This document shows positions 3,702 through 13,466 of a stretch of 64,000 nucleotides of DNA, piece by piece (the first letter of the stretch is position 1; each line of letters opens with the position of its first letter). The notes below the pieces were generated by a model. That model ran no database searches. It saw only the letters and a program-made list of their open reading frames with translations, and was not told the DNA's origin. The DNA is from a bacterium (lineage in GTDB: Bacteria > CAIWAD01): NCBI GenBank assembly GCA_030685015.1, contig JAUXWS010000041.1, forward strand, positions 42,478 to 106,477, written 5' to 3'. A program made the translations under genes and the position numbers.

Positions 3702-5255
3702 ATGGATCGTGATCTGGCCTCCATCCAGGAAGTCCGGGAGATGTTGACGGCAGCCCGTGCCGCCGCCGACCAGTTCAAGCACTTCAGCCAGGACCAGGTG
3801 GACCGCGTCGTCCAGGCGATGGCGACGGCCGCGCTGAACAACGCCAAGCGCCTGGCCCGCATGGCCCACGAGGAAACGGGCTTCGGCCGCATCGAGGACA
3901 AGACGACCAAGAACGTCTTCTGCTCGAAGAACCTGATGGACTACGTGGGGCCGCTGAGAACCTGTGGCGTCATCGCCCACGACGAGCGGCGGCGCATCCA
4001 CGAGATCGCCGTGCCCATGGGCATCGTGGCGGCACTCATTCCCTGCACCAATCCCACCTCGACGGCCATCTTCAAGTCGATCATCTCGCTGAAGAGCCGC
4101 AACGCCATTGTGATGAGTCCGCACCCCAAGGCCCGGGGCTGCATCCTGGAGACCACCCGCCTGCTGCACGACGCCGCCAGCGCCGTGGGCGCGCCGCGCA
4201 GCCTGGTCCAATGCATGACCCTGCCCACCCTGGATGGTACCCAGGAGCTGATGCGCCACAAGCTCACCAGCGTCATCCTGGCCACCGGCGGCAGCGACAT
4301 GGTGCGGGCCGCCTACAGCGCCGGCAAGCCCGCCTACGGCGTGGGTCCGGGCAACGTGCCGGCCTATGTGGATCGCACGGCGGACGTGGGCAAGGCGGCG
4401 CGCGACATCGTGGCCGGCAAGAGCTTCGATTGGGGCACCGTCTGCGCCAGCGAGCAGAGTGTGGTGGCGGACCGGCCCATTGCCGGCAAGCTGATGGAGG
4501 AGATGCGCCGGGCGGGCGCCCACTTCTGCACAGCCGAGGAGAAGGCCAAACTGCAGGCCGTGATGGTGGACAAACGCGGCAAGATCAACGCCGAGATCGT
4601 GGGGCGCAGCCCGCAACACATCGGCGGCCTGGCCGGGATCAAGGTGCCGCCCGCCGTGCGCGCCCTGGTCGTCCTGCTGGACGAGGTGGGCGTGAAGGAT
4701 CCCCTCTCCTGCGAGAAGCTCAGCCCCGTGCTTGGCTTCTACGTGGTGGACGGCTGGAAGTCCGGCTGCGACCTCAGCGTGCGCATCCTCGAGTACGGCG
4801 GCGTGGGGCACACCTTCGCCATCCACTGCCTGGATCCCGACATCGTGATGGAGTTCGGACTGCACAAGCCGGCCTTCCGCATCATCGTCAACTCGCCGGC
4901 CACCCACGGCGCCATCGGCTACACGACCGGCCTGACACCCAGCATGACCCTGGGTCCGGGCACCTGGGGCGGCAGCATCACCAGCGACAACGTGGGGCCG
5001 CTCAACCTCGTCAACATCAAGCGCGTCGCCTGGGAGACCAATCCCCTGGAGGGCGCCACCCCGGGCGCCGCCACCAAGTGGGGTTACGACGAGCAATACC
5101 GCTACCGGCCCAGGGAGGAGGTCGCCCGGGCCAACGCCGAGAAGGCCGCCGGTGCAACGACAACCACCGCTTCGCGCACCGAAGCGCCCCAGTACGGCAA
5201 AAGCGGGATGAGCGACGAGGAGATCGACCGCATCGTCAAGGAATTCAAGGGCTGA
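3702..5255 (+). CDS. CoA-acylating aldehyde dehydrogenase (EutE/AdhE-N type) with C-terminal targeting-like helix
   Basis: 517 residues. The catalytic cysteine is C248 in FDWGTVCASEQSVV, as in the aldehyde domain of AdhE and in EutE/PduP-like enzymes that convert an aldehyde, NAD+ and CoA to acyl-CoA. The cofactor loop ATGGSDMVRAAY and VGPGNVPAYVD are conserved. After the catalytic domain (to about 465) comes a low-complexity linker rich in Ala and Thr and then a 15-residue amphipathic helix, MSDEEIDRIVKEFKG, which looks like the encapsulation peptides of bacterial microcompartment enzymes. The PduL-like gene follows after 7 bp, so acyl-CoA would be passed to acyl phosphate. No shell-protein gene is in the window; the substrate is unknown. 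Confidence 0.9.
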   Translation: MDRDLASIQEVREMLTAARAAADQFKHFSQDQVDRVVQAMATAALNNAKRLARMAHEETGFGRIEDKTTKNVFCSKNLMDYVGPLRTCGVIAHDERRRIHEIAVPMGIVAALIPCTNPTSTAIFKSIISLKSRNAIVMSPHPKARGCILETTRLLHDAASAVGAPRSLVQCMTLPTLDGTQELMRHKLTSVILATGGSDMVRAAYSAGKPAYGVGPGNVPAYVDRTADVGKAARDIVAGKSFDWGTVCASEQSVVADRPIAGKLMEEMRRAGAHFCTAEEKAKLQAVMVDKRGKINAEIVGRSPQHIGGLAGIKVPPAVRALVVLLDEVGVKDPLSCEKLSPVLGFYVVDGWKSGCDLSVRILEYGGVGHTFAIHCLDPDIVMEFGLHKPAFRIIVNSPATHGAIGYTTGLTPSMTLGPGTWGGSITSDNVGPLNLVNIKRVAWETNPLEGATPGAATKWGYDEQYRYRPREEVARANAEKAAGATTTTASRTEAPQYGKSGMSDEEIDRIVKEFKG

Positions 5256-5262
5256 TCAGCCG

Positions 5263-6036
5263 GTGAGCCTCCACCCCCGCATCCGCGTCATCGGCCCGCG
5301 GGCCTTTCTTGGCCGGGAGCACGTCGTCCGGCTCTTCGGAGAGGACGCCCGGCTGGAGTTCGCAGCGTCGCTGGGTTTGCAGGCGGGCTTCCTGGCGCGG
5401 CAGGAAGTGGCCGCCGCCACGGCGCTGGGTCGCCTGTCCGGCATTCCCGTGGTGGGACCTCCCCAGGAGCCGGCCCGCCTGGAGTGCCCGCTGGGACTGG
5501 CGCGCCAGCTTGGCCTGGAACCGCCGGTGCGCCACAGCGGGGACGTGGAGGGCGCGCCCCGTGTCACCCTCATCGGACCGTGCGGCCACCTGGAGCTGGC
5601 GCAAGGCGTGATCAGCCTGACGCGCCGTCTGGAGTGCTCAGCGGACAACGCCCGGCGTCTGGGCCTGCTGGATGGCGATCGCGTGGTTTGCGCCGTGCGC
5701 AGCCACCAGCGGACGGATCTGCGGGAGGCCGTGCGCGATGGCATCCTGGGCGAAGTCTTCGTGCGCGTCTCCGCCGACTACGATCTGGAACTCCATCTGG
5801 ATACGGACGATGCCACAGCCCTTCGCATACAGGATGGCGACATGGCCCGCTTGCTGACAGCCGGGCGCAGCGGCCAGGGACCCGGCCATCTGCCGGTGGG
5901 GCGCCTGGTGGGCGAGGCCGAGGTGCGCGCCGCCCGGGAACAGGGCCTGCGCATCCGGGTCGTCCGCGGCATGCTGCTCACCCCCTCCGCCCGCGACCTG
6001 GGCCGTGCCTGGGACCTGCTGGACCTGGAGGAGTGA
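5263..6036 (+). CDS. PduL-like phosphate acyltransferase lacking the metal-binding HxH motifs
   Basis: 257 residues in two PduL-type halves. Conserved PduL stretches are GPPQEPARLE, the LGLEPPVRHSGD segment containing the phosphate-binding Arg, VTLIGPCG, and LELHLDTDD. PduL enzymes convert acyl-CoA and phosphate to acyl phosphate and normally bind two zinc ions through RHxHxS motifs in each half. Here the first reads PRAFLG (residues 12-17) and the second RRLECS (121-126), so both His pairs are lost. The GTG start lies 7 bp after the dehydrogenase stop, implying co-transcription. Either a catalytically altered or non-catalytic PduL relative; the family call is firm, the activity is not. Confidence 0.75.
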   Translation: MSLHPRIRVIGPRAFLGREHVVRLFGEDARLEFAASLGLQAGFLARQEVAAATALGRLSGIPVVGPPQEPARLECPLGLARQLGLEPPVRHSGDVEGAPRVTLIGPCGHLELAQGVISLTRRLECSADNARRLGLLDGDRVVCAVRSHQRTDLREAVRDGILGEVFVRVSADYDLELHLDTDDATALRIQDGDMARLLTAGRSGQGPGHLPVGRLVGEAEVRAAREQGLRIRVVRGMLLTPSARDLGRAWDLLDLEE

Positions 6037-6896: not shown

Positions 6897-7044
6897 CCGG
6901 TGATGCGGTCCCGGCCCAGGACCGCGCGCGTTCCGTCAGCTTCCCGGCCCGGTCGCCATGGCCGGGGACCGCATGCCTGTGGGTGATCGGGCTTGTGCGT
7001 GACCCTGCCTGGATAGATGTTGTCCCCGCAAGGTCGACGAGGCG

Positions 7045-7164
7045 ATGCTCAAGCCGCCCGGGCGTCCGGACATCGACCAGCTGGAGCTCGTCGTCTTCAC
7101 TGGACAATTCCACGAAGTGGGGCCGTTCCTGGAGAAGGCCTTCGCCATAGGCAAAGAGCTTTGA
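7045..7164 (+). pseudogene. Possible gene remnant or 39-residue ORF
   Basis: The frame reads MLKPPGRPDIDQLELVVF and ends EKAFAIGKEL; it looks protein-like (amphipathic strand then helix) and stays open a little upstream without another start. It fills most of the 297-base gap 6897-7193, which otherwise shows nothing recognisable. There is no clear ribosome binding site. It could be the end of a decayed gene or a chance ORF. Confidence 0.25.
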
Positions 7165-7193
7165 GCCGGTCCGATGCAGCAGGGGGAGGCACC

Positions 7194-7634
7194 ATGAGCC
7201 GCGCCGATCACGCCGTGCAGCTGTTCCAGGGCGGGCATGCCTGTTCCCAGGCCGTCCTGCTTGCCTGGGCGGTAGAGCAGGGACTGGATCCGGCCCTGGC
7301 CGCGCGGCTGGCCGCCGGGCTGGGCGGCGGTATGCACCAGGGCGGCCTCTGCGGCGCGGCCAGCGGCGCTGTCCTGGTGCTGGGGCTGGTCCTGGGCGGC
7401 GAGGCCTGTGTCACAAAGGAAGGCCGTGAGCCGGTCTTCGCGGCGGTGGAAGAGTTCATGCGCCGGTTTCGTGAACGGGCGGGGTCCTTGGATTGCCCGG
7501 AGATCCTTGGTTGCGACCTGTGCTCGCCGGATGGCTTGGCGAAGGCCCGCGCGGAGGACCGCTTCGCCAGCATCTGCGAACCGGTGGTGCGGATCGCGGT
7601 GGAAATCCTGGAGGACGAACTCGCCCAGGGGTGA
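7194..7634 (+). CDS. C_GCAxxG_C_C family redox-type protein
   Basis: 146 residues matching the C_GCAxxG_C_C family: GGHACSQAVL near the N terminus, GGGMHQGGLCGAASGA, then CPEILGCDL and a last Cys in FASICEPV. These spaced cysteines are thought to bind metal or act in redox chemistry; members are often found near transport or electron-transfer genes, and no reaction is established. The ATG at 7194 has AGGGGGAGG ahead of it. Confidence 0.85.
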   Translation: MSRADHAVQLFQGGHACSQAVLLAWAVEQGLDPALAARLAAGLGGGMHQGGLCGAASGAVLVLGLVLGGEACVTKEGREPVFAAVEEFMRRFRERAGSLDCPEILGCDLCSPDGLAKARAEDRFASICEPVVRIAVEILEDELAQG

Positions 7635-7800
7635 CCCGCGCGTCCGTCGCTGCCACGTCCTCCGTCCACCGGCTCCGCCGGTTTTCCTTCCATCGGGTTC
7701 GGCCATGGGACATGTGGCGGACGCTTGGTATGCTCTGCCGTCCCCCGACACGGCCGTCACCACCAGAATCAGCAACACAATTCACAAGGAGACATCACGA

Positions 7801-8183
7801 TGAAAGCGCTCGAGCGTTACGCCGACCATGCCTACGCCCTGCTCCGCATCGTGGCCGCCTTCATGTTCCTCTTCCACGGCGTGCAGAAGGTGCTCGGCCT
7901 GCTCAGCGAACTCCAGCCGCCCATGGGCAGCCAGTTGTGGCTGGGCGGCTTCATCGAGCTGGTGGCCGGCCTGGCCATCCTCATCGGCTGGCAGACCCGT
8001 TGGGCGGCCTTCCTCGCCAGCGGCACCATGGCCGTGGCCTACATCCAGTTCCACTGGCAGTTCCAGTTCGGCGAGGCCTTCCTGCCGGTGATCAACAAAG
8101 GCGAGCTGGCGGCTCTCTACAGCTTCGTCTTTCTTTACATCGCCTGTCGTGGCGCCGTGAAATGGGGCGTGGACAAGGCCTGA
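7801..8183 (+). CDS. DoxX family membrane protein
   Basis: 127 residues with four membrane segments. LLRIVAAFMFLFHGVQKV is the typical DoxX first helix, followed by GGFIELVAGLAILIGWQTR and AYIQFHW. DoxX proteins are small quinone-oxidoreductase-associated or stress-linked membrane proteins; no specific role can be given. AAGGAG precedes the ATG at the usual distance. A non-coding leader of about 165 bp separates it from the preceding gene. Confidence 0.9.
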
Positions 8184-8247
8184 GGCCGGCGCCCCCGCCG
8201 CCGCTCGATCGCCATCGGGCACGAGAGTATGACAGGAGGTACCCGGC

Positions 8248-9615
8248 ATGACTCGCCGCCACATCGGCATCCTGCATCCCGGCGCCATGGGAATCTCGCT
8301 GGCCGCCGCCGCCCGGAGGAACGGGCATGTTGTCCACTGGGTGTCGGCGGGACGCGGCCCACGTACACGGGAACGGGCGGAGGCCCACGGCCTGGTCGAA
8401 CATGGGAGCCTGGAGCAGCTCGGCGCGGCCTGCCAGCTGATCATCAGTGGTTGCCCGCCCCACGCCGCCGCAGAAGTGGCGGAGGCGGTGCGCGCCACGT
8501 CCTTCCGCGGCCTCTACGCGGATTGCAATGCCATCTCGCCCGAGCGGGCCAGACAGATCGGGCGACGGATGGCAGAGGCGGGCATCGCCTTCGTGGATGG
8601 CGGCATCATCGGTGGTCCCGCCTGGGAGCCCGGCGCCACGTGGCTCTACCTGTCCGGGGCGGCCGCTGCGGACGTGGCGGACTGCTTCGCCGCCGGACCC
8701 CTGGAGTGCGAGGTGATCGGACCGGAGCCCGGCCGCGCCTCCGCCCTCAAGATGTGCTACGCCGCCAATACCAAAGGCGGGACAGCCCTGCTTTGCGCCG
8801 TGGTCGCGGCGGCCGAGGCGCTGGGTGTGCGGCGCGAGCTGGAGGCGCAATGGACGCGGGAGCAGCCGGACAGCCCGACGCGCATCCACCAGCGACTCCG
8901 GCGTGTCACGGGCAAGGCCTGGCGCTTCGCGGGGGAGATGGAGGAGATCGCCGCCACCTTCACGGCGGCCGGATTGCCCGGCGGTTTCCACGAGGCCGCC
9001 GCCGAGCTCTACCAACGTCTCGCCCCCTTCAAGGAGGCCGCCGAGCCGCCCGCCCTGGAGGCCGTGTTGCATGTCCTGAAAGGATGTGGGACTGAGGAGG
9101 CGGGGCGTTGCGGCGGGGTTCTGCGCGTGGTCCGCGGCGACATCACGACCCTGGCGGTGGACGCCATCGTCAACGCCGCCAACATCCTGCTGCTGGGCGG
9201 CGGCGGCGTGGACGGGGCGATCCATCGCGCCGCCGGACCGCAGCTGCTGGAGGAGTGCCGTCTGCTGGGCGGATGCGAGACGGGCGAGGCGAGGGTCACT
9301 TACGGCTACAACCTGCCCTGCCACTTGGTGATCCACACGGTGGGCCCTGTCTGGCAGGGCGGCGACGCCGGCGAGGCGGCCTTGCTCTCTGCCTGCTACC
9401 GCAACAGCATCGAAGTGGCCGCTCTCACCGGGGTGCGCCGCCTGGCCTTCCCATGCATCAGCACGGGGGTCTTCAGCTATCCGCACGAACCGGCGGCCCG
9501 CATCGCCGTGGAGAGTGCGCGCCGGTCGCAGCGGGAGTTCCCCGCCGTGAGCGAGATCATCTTCTGCTGTTACTCGGACGAAGACGAAGAGATCTACCGC
9601 CGCCTGCTCGAATGA
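8248..9615 (+). CDS. Fusion: 3-hydroxyisobutyrate dehydrogenase-like (NAD-binding + DUF1932) and macro domain
   Basis: 455 residues in one uninterrupted frame. Residues 1 to about 285 form a 6PGDH/3-HIBADH-like protein: a Rossmann start IGILHPGAMGISLAAAARRN, the segment YADCNAISPERARQI, DGGIIGGPAW, and a helical C-terminal domain around KMCYAANTKG of DUF1932 type. From about residue 292 there is a complete macro domain: RGDITTLAVDAIVNAAN, LLLGGGGVDGAIHRAAG and CISTGVFSYPHEPAARIAV, all ADP-ribose-binding or deacetylase motifs. The linker is short. Macro domains remove ADP-ribose or O-acetyl-ADP-ribose adducts; a link with an NAD(P)-dependent dehydrogenase suggests a joint NAD-metabolite role, which is inference. 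Confidence 0.85.
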   Translation: MTRRHIGILHPGAMGISLAAAARRNGHVVHWVSAGRGPRTRERAEAHGLVEHGSLEQLGAACQLIISGCPPHAAAEVAEAVRATSFRGLYADCNAISPERARQIGRRMAEAGIAFVDGGIIGGPAWEPGATWLYLSGAAAADVADCFAAGPLECEVIGPEPGRASALKMCYAANTKGGTALLCAVVAAAEALGVRRELEAQWTREQPDSPTRIHQRLRRVTGKAWRFAGEMEEIAATFTAAGLPGGFHEAAAELYQRLAPFKEAAEPPALEAVLHVLKGCGTEEAGRCGGVLRVVRGDITTLAVDAIVNAANILLLGGGGVDGAIHRAAGPQLLEECRLLGGCETGEARVTYGYNLPCHLVIHTVGPVWQGGDAGEAALLSACYRNSIEVAALTGVRRLAFPCISTGVFSYPHEPAARIAVESARRSQREFPAVSEIIFCCYSDEDEEIYRRLLE

Positions 9616-10767: not shown

Positions 10768-12410
10768 ATGCGCCATCAAATCATGATCTCCCTGATGCTC
10801 GCCCTCGTTCTGCCCGGCTGGGGCCGGCTCTTTGTCGGCTTGGAGGATGAGACCCTTCCCGTGAAATCCAGCGACCTGGCCGGCTTTCCCGCGGTCACCT
10901 GGACCAGCCATCCCGCCTTCGAGGTGAATGGCCTCGCCGCCGCGCCCGATGGCACCATCTACGCGTGTCGCGGCCCCTTCACAACGCAGATCCATCGCTT
11001 CCGGCCAGACGGACCCGCCGAATACCTGTGCAACGCCGGGGTGGACCTGCACGGGCTGGGCTACGGCAACGGCACCCTCTACGGCTTCGCCAACTTCGCC
11101 AGCCCCATGGGGATCTACACCATCGACCCGGCCACCGGCCAGGCCGCCCTCGCCGTCGATCTCAGCAGCCCGGGCTACCGCTATTTCGCGCTGGATTTCA
11201 ACCCCGCCGATGGCCTGCTTTACGGTTACACCGAGTACGGCTCGCCCAGCGGCCTTCATTCCATTGATCCCACCAGCGGCGCCATCACGCCCATCGCCGG
11301 ACCCATTCCCGCGGTGAACAGCCAGGGCCGGGCGCTGGCCGTGGGCAACGGCGTGGTCTACCTGGCCGCCACGCGCGGGGACGACGGCGTGCCGCTATAT
11401 GCCTGGGATCTTGTGGCGGGAGGACCGTGGACAGCCTTCACCCAGCCCTTTCCCGACCATCACAACACGGGCGGTGCCGCCTGGTTGCCCGCGCCGGCTC
11501 CCCGCTGCGAAGTGGAGCCGGGCCTGATCGACCTGGGCGTGCTGCTGGCCGGCGGTTTGCGCAGCGGCAGCTTCACGGTGACGAACGCGGGGAGCGGCAT
11601 GTTGACGGGCGCCGCCACGGCCGACTGCCCCGGGCTGGAGCTGGACAACAATGCCTACAGCCTGGGGCCGGGGGAATCGCAGACGGTGGTGGCAAGCTAC
11701 ACCGGGACGGCGGCGGGCGATCTCGAGTGTCTCATCGACGTGGGCGCGGAGTGTGATCCGGTCATCTGCCGAGCCGCCGTCGTCTGGGTGGCGCCCCTGA
11801 CCGGCGAAGCCTCCCCCTGCGGCACGGTGGACGACCTGGGCCACCTGCCGGGAGCGGTCACCGGTTTCATGGTGGACTGGAACGCGGGCGATGTGGGCTG
11901 CAACTATTCAACGGCGAAGGGCACCCCCTCGGCGTATCCTTGCGGGTCAATGGGCAGGAGGTGTGGAACGGGACCGTCTCCACCGCCATCTGGCCTGCGG
12001 CCGCGTCGGGAATCGATCCTGCCGCCCTGGCGGAGGACATCGTCCTGCATCTTGAAGTCACGGACGGCACGGACGTCTGGAACGATGGAGGCGGGGAGTG
12101 CGCCTGGGACCTGGCCTTCGCGGACCTGTCCCACACCACGCGACCGGCGGCCTTCCGGCTGGAGGCTCCCGTCCCCAATCCCTTCAATCCTGGCACCACC
12201 ATTCGCCTTGTGATGCCCACCCCCCAGGCGGCGAGGCTGCGTGTGGTTGATCTGGCCGGGCGCACCATGGCCCAACTTCATGACGGCGCCCTGCCGGCAG
12301 GGGAGCACGTCTTTGTCTGGCGGCCTGGAAGCCAGGGCGGCGGGCTTTACTTCGCGGTGGCGGAGAGCGGGGGCGTGACCAGGACGCGGCGCTTGCTCTA
12401 CATCCGGTGA
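10768..12410 (+). pseudogene. Secreted beta-propeller-like protein with PNPFNP sorting domain, frameshifted
   Basis: The first frame (10768 to about 11906) encodes a signal peptide, propeller-like repeats (NGLAAAPDGTIYACR, IDPTSGAITPIAG) and an immunoglobulin-like CEVEPGLIDLGVLL domain. It then runs into nonsense sequence, while the next frame continues the protein as FNGEGHPLGVSLRVNGQEVW and ends with PVPNPFNPGTTIRLVMPTPQ...LLYIR, a FlgD-type domain used as an outer-membrane sorting signal in FCB bacteria. One missing base near 11905-11908 (TATTC where TATTTC would restore the frame) explains the break. It may be a true mutation or a sequencing error. Confidence 0.75.
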
Positions 12411-12605: not shown

Positions 12606-13466
12606 ATGACCTTCTGGTTGAAGGTCTACGGAGGCGCCTTCGCCGCCTTCCTTGCCTTGGACCTGCTCTGGCTGGGCGTGGTGGCCAAGGGCTTCCACCA
12701 CCGCCAGATCGGCTTCCTCATGGCCGACAGCCCCAACTGGACCGCGGCCCTCCTCTTCTACCTGCTCTTCGTGGCCGGCATCCTCGTCTTCGTCATCCAG
12801 CCGGGGCTGGCCGCCGGCACCTTGAAGTCGACCATTTTGCGTGGCGCCTTCTTTGGCGTGGTCACCTACGCAGCCTTCGATCTCACCCGCCAGGCCGTGC
12901 TGAAGAACTGGCCGGTGGCGCTCACCGAGGTGGACCTCTGCTGGGGCATGATCCTGACGGGCTCCGCCAGCGCGGTCGGCCACCTCTTTGGATCCCGCGT
13001 GGCATGGGGCAAGGACTGGTTCCCTGGCTGTCGGGGTGGTGGTGGGATCCCATTCATGACGAAGCCGACCGCAGTCGTGAGGCCAGCATTCCGGTTGGCG
13101 GTTTGGGGCGGACGGCTCCGCCGGGAGCTGGATGTCTGGATCCTGGTTTCTCGGCATCCCGGCACGCCGCGGGCGCCCAGGTTGGTGCTGATCCTGACCC
13201 TGGCCTATGCGGCAAGCCCCATTGATCTCGTTCCCGACGTCATCCCCGTGCTGGGGCATCTGGACGATTTGCTGTTGGTGCCCTTAGGCCTGTGGCTGGC
13301 TTCCCGCATGGTGCCACCGTGGGTGTTGGTCGAGTGCCGGGCGCGCGCGGGCGCCGGAGAGCCGACCTTGGCCCGGGGCGGCCGCTGGGTGGCGGCCGGA
13401 GTGGTCCTGCTGTGGCTGCTGGCCATCATCCTGCTGGCCAGGCGGTGGGTGCGGGCAGGCACGTAG
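12606..13466 (+). CDS. DUF2177 membrane protein fused to a DUF1232 (YkvA-like) domain
   Basis: 286 residues from the ATG preceded by AAAGGAGCC. Residues 1-140 are DUF2177: [20 protein letters not shown], a second helix pair, [20 protein letters not shown]. After a Gly-rich hinge and basic segment comes DUF1232 at about 190-235, with its signature [20 protein letters not shown], then a C-terminal membrane helix. Both families are small membrane proteins of unknown function, normally separate and each about 130 residues. The frame continues without a stop between them, so the fusion is direct, though an internal ATG at 13057 could give the second half alone. Confidence 0.7.

Follow-up and report, generated by a model that had tools for sequence, protein, structure and literature searches.

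Dehydrogenases of the DUF1932 type (PF09130), such as MTH1747 (PDB 1i36) and 3qsg, comprise an NAD_binding_2 domain followed by a DUF1932 domain and carry a conserved lysine. MacroD-type macro domains are represented by MACROD1 and MACROD2, E. coli YmdB and the NCBIfam equivalog NF001664 (O-acetyl-ADP-ribose deacetylase). Macro domains joined to other sequence have also been catalogued (e.g., the protein-ADP-ribose hydrolase PRK04143 and the AAA ATPase-macro protein NF009880 in NCBIfam), but none of those partners is related to the DUF1932 dehydrogenases. A literature search for DUF1932 or macro-6PGDH fusions returned no relevant open-access paper.

In the window (the whole 64,000-nucleotide stretch of bacterial DNA analysed here), both kinds of domain are encoded by a single uninterrupted open reading frame on the forward strand (8248-9615; 455 amino acids plus stop). 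The frame starts with ATG at 8248, is preceded 8 nt upstream by a Shine-Dalgarno-like AGGAGG (8234-8239, forward strand) and has no internal stops. It is the only copy in its genome and gives the top codon score along its whole length in a codon scan. We read this gene as a real but recent in-frame fusion, confined to its lineage, of two genes that lay side by side, with a probability of roughly 0.6.

Two enzymes in one frame

Pfam, NCBIfam and PDB sequence searches split the protein cleanly in two: residues 1 to about 280 form a dehydrogenase with NAD_binding_2 and DUF1932 domains, and residues from about 290 to 455 form a MacroD-type macro domain, with some 10 linker residues between them. 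The halves were aligned separately because macro domains aligned to the Rossmann domain in a mixed alignment and made it unusable; AlphaFold2 folded each half with high confidence from that half's own alignment.

The dehydrogenase part (8248-9087, forward strand) contains NAD_binding_2 at residues 6-138 (E 2.9e-7; 31.1 bits against a gathering score of 21) and DUF1932 at residues 189-258 (E 8e-16; 58.1 bits against 25), so both Pfam gathering scores are exceeded and the domain order is that of the DUF1932 type. The GAMG loop and E230 are conserved, and an alignment of 38 sequences shows no variation in the cofactor-loop residues or at R36, K168 and K176; the glycine-rich cofactor loop together with K168/K176 again places the protein among DUF1932-type dehydrogenases. 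The nearest solved structures by sequence are 1i36 and 3qsg, which share the domain order, the conserved lysine and the fold (Foldseek E about 1e-16). In the AlphaFold2 model built on the dehydrogenase alignment, the mean pLDDT is about 96 over residues 1-280 and values are low at residues 284-290; the top structural matches of this model are 3qsg, 4ezb and 1i36, followed by imine reductases and 3-hydroxyisobutyrate dehydrogenases. Identity to stand-alone DUF1932 proteins of Chloroflexi and others reaches 63%; however, known DUF1932 dehydrogenases stop at about residue 280, whereas the present protein continues into the macro domain. Judged by sequence, the N-terminal half is most likely an ordinary NAD(P)-dependent DUF1932-type dehydrogenase of the 6-phosphogluconate/3-hydroxyisobutyrate dehydrogenase superfamily. 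Its Rossmann domain would bind the cofactor, with NADP suiting R36, which is invariant and follows the second strand, and K168 is the likely general acid/base. By analogy with the family, the putative substrate of NAD(P)-dependent turnover may be a small hydroxyacid- or imine-like compound.

The macro part (9115-9612, forward strand) exceeds the Macro gathering score by a wide margin (residues 308-420, E 5e-42; 143 bits against 22) and the curated NF001664 cut-off (220 bits against 200), which together assign it to the MacroD type. The first-pass annotation had described all catalytic-looking motifs as present, and alignment to MACROD1/2 and nine bacterial macro domains confirms this: VNAAN (residues 308-312), GGGGVDGAIH (ending at H326) and ISTGVFSYP are intact in the catalytic loops. 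Like those of MACROD1/2, YmdB and NF001664 members, the domain is complete. MACROD2, MACROD1 and YmdB are the nearest solved structures by sequence, and in the model built on the macro alignment residues 291-455 have a mean pLDDT of about 93. Matches to PRK04143 and NF009880 are limited to the macro part. Bacterial stand-alone macro domains are up to 60% identical, but the present domain sits behind a dehydrogenase and has no separate start codon in the usual position. Family knowledge suggests an ordinary MacroD-type hydrolase that would cleave ADP-ribose esters (protein Asp/Glu-ADP-ribose or O-acetyl-ADP-ribose).

The earlier description of a complete dehydrogenase and a complete macro domain in one frame is therefore upheld by the 455-codon frame, Pfam, NCBIfam and the models. 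Its view that the pair is apparently novel also stands, as no other example was found.

The junction and the surrounding assembly

Stand-alone dehydrogenases stop about where the linker begins. The junction stretch (9082-9126, forward strand) is not codon-like: GC content by codon position is 0.80/0.73/0.67, so that GC3 falls below GC2 (0.73/0.67 for GC2/GC3, against 0.57/0.85 on one flank and 0.49/0.90 on the other), and the codon score drops. It is probably a former intergenic region whose 3' end already encodes the first residues of macro strand beta 1. The linker carries TGAGGAGG out of frame; in the third frame, a TGA (9093-9095) overlaps an AGGAGG (9095-9100), and this forward-strand element (9093-9100) is probably what is left of one gene's end and of the following gene's ribosome site. 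Its position is the one expected for the ribosome site of a stand-alone macro gene. AGGAGG occurs inside the genes of the window at 0.8 per kb, which predicts 0.03 occurrences in 40 nt. By itself the motif is weak evidence, because the codon pair GAG GAG is frequent.

In nine stand-alone macro genes, translation begins about 9-19 residues N-terminal to the conserved D298, which corresponds to 9082-9114 in the window. No in-frame ATG, GTG or TTG of the macro frame occurs in 9070-9126. The in-frame candidates are 9064 and 9067, which lie inside the dehydrogenase, and GTG 9127, which would cut strand beta 1 (residues 291-296). A well-spaced TTG at 9108 is usable only with two compensating errors within about 35 nt. 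With no in-frame start at the usual position, translation of the macro half apparently relies on the start of the dehydrogenase. At the level of sequence, the linker reads as a former two-gene junction with stop, ribosome site and macro start, although the sequence behind these arguments is a few dozen bases long and comes from a single genome. The stop or frameshift near 9100 that the first-pass annotation had named as the sign of two genes is absent from the assembly, yet the region keeps marks of a former gene boundary.

The main rival explanation is that ordinary adjacent dehydrogenase and macro genes were joined by one or more indel errors in the G-rich linker, which we regard as possible but rather unlikely. 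The direct overlap of the out-of-frame TGA with AGGAGG would fit such an error, as would the uniqueness of the architecture and the state of the same contig downstream. A codon-model scan of the window gave one well-supported one-base frameshift, at about 11905 and 2.8 kb downstream of the junction, which splits a gene with a C-terminal FlgD/T9SS-like tail (10768-12410) into two frames; two further calls at the edges of doubtful genes were not credited. The homologue in a same-genus genome (G001, L104:8869-11805) is a single 978-aa open reading frame covering both frames. A second in-frame join reads DUF2177 and DUF1232 as one open reading frame (12606-13466), and in G001 (C203, locus L120) these are adjacent separate genes in different frames. 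One frameshift and two joins thus lie inside 5 kb of this contig, a cluster that can reflect either fusion of genes in this lineage or indel errors in this region. Against an artefact, indels are rare, with only one well-supported frameshift in approximately 57 kb of coding sequence. Moreover, a single error would not yield two healthy genes, because the macro gene would be left with the starts at 9064, 9067 or 9127 only, and the TTG at 9108 would come into use only through the paired errors described above. This favours a real fusion, short of proof.

The two homologues around 11905 also differ in their N-terminal unit, which is present twice in tandem in L104:8869-11805 and once in the window gene.

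Distribution among relatives

No second fused protein was found among more than 100 dehydrogenase relatives, so the recurrence in more than one species expected of a conserved bifunctional family is not seen. Short peptide patterns, which find close relatives and could miss distant fusions, were scanned against 84,980 species genomes and returned 70 loci, nearly all (about 69) dehydrogenases of 35-65% identity. None of these had a macro domain within the up to 5 kb searched on each side. Where the end of a relative could be read, the protein finishes at about residue 280 or has a short unrelated tail beyond it. Further searches gave the dehydrogenase in 17 genomes out of 386, 35 out of 301 and 10 out of 247, and the fusion was seen in none. 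For the first set the three longest open reading frames were read and contain no macro domain; those of the other two reach 406 codons at the most, and all but the longest of them are too small to hold both domains. Among 72,556 plasmids, no record spanned 80% of the fused protein. Long open reading frames around DUF1932 in three genomes (G088, G115 and G278; 593, 608 and 466 codons) were rejected as fusions, being upstream read-through of open GC-rich sequence with no macro domain.

Closer to the source genome, both domains are absent from the two same-genus genomes. A same-family genome (G003) has a stand-alone dehydrogenase of approximately 55% identity; a TGA seemingly inside this match was rejected as an internal stop, as it marks where the stand-alone gene normally ends. 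The macro domain of the fused gene is the only one found with this query in its own genome and five genomes of its phylum. An unfused adjacent dehydrogenase-macro pair, the presumed ancestral state, was sought in relatives and none was found.

Origin and significance of the join

A recent fusion is supported by the intact motifs of both domains, a linker that resembles a relic, the nearby DUF2177+DUF1232 join and the lack of the architecture in the other genomes searched. Counting against it are the single genome and draft assembly, the indels on the contig (errors or real) and the lack of the unfused pair elsewhere. In the proposed order of events, two adjacent genes would have been joined when a small indel arose upstream of the old stop, and the macro start would have been lost by later drift. 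Tethered by the short linker, the halves would most probably work independently, each in its usual role.

A selected bifunctional enzyme, whose halves share a metabolite or ADP-ribose adduct through channelling or redox coupled to de-ADP-ribosylation, appears improbable. Both catalytic sites appear intact, the macro domain is the sole one that this query recovered from this genome and five of its phylum, and a sirtuin encoded elsewhere in the genome could be the source of O-acetyl-ADP-ribose for it. However, the fusion is conserved nowhere, no macro gene stands beside any dehydrogenase relative examined with its flanks, nothing connects the sirtuin to the dehydrogenase, and the genes next to the dehydrogenase in other genomes are unrelated and differ from case to case (S9 and M20 peptidases, GNAT, Ldh_2, luciferase-like). 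We know of no chemical step linking the two reactions. The suggestion of the first-pass annotation that NAD(P)-dependent oxidation is coupled to ADP-ribose handling thus went unsupported, given an architecture seen once, macro-free flanks at about 69 loci and a linker that looks formerly intergenic. That the two enzymes act in sequence on one ADP-ribose-linked or acyl metabolite, tying NADP redox to ADP-ribose ester removal, and fused since they already cooperated, is likewise improbable.

The fusion most likely represents a recent accidental join, not a conserved two-step machine. If real, it adds a new domain pair and a Rosetta-stone hint linking an uncharacterised dehydrogenase family to ADP-ribose turnover; the hint is weak, since it comes from one case whose linker looks like a relic. 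Its main value is one of caution, as single-genome fusions need reads and recurrence before mechanisms are built on them.

Synteny of the fused gene with G001-G003 was sought and none is conserved; nor was a common operon partner of the dehydrogenase found among 20 neighbours, or a DarT-type partner in the genome. Just upstream of the fused gene (7017-8183) lie a C_GCAxxG_C_C putative redox protein and then a DoxX-family membrane protein. Further upstream (3702-6036), an acetylating aldehyde dehydrogenase (EutE-like) is encoded immediately 5' of a PduL-type phosphate propanoyltransferase; such pairs are characteristic of pathways housed in bacterial microcompartments.
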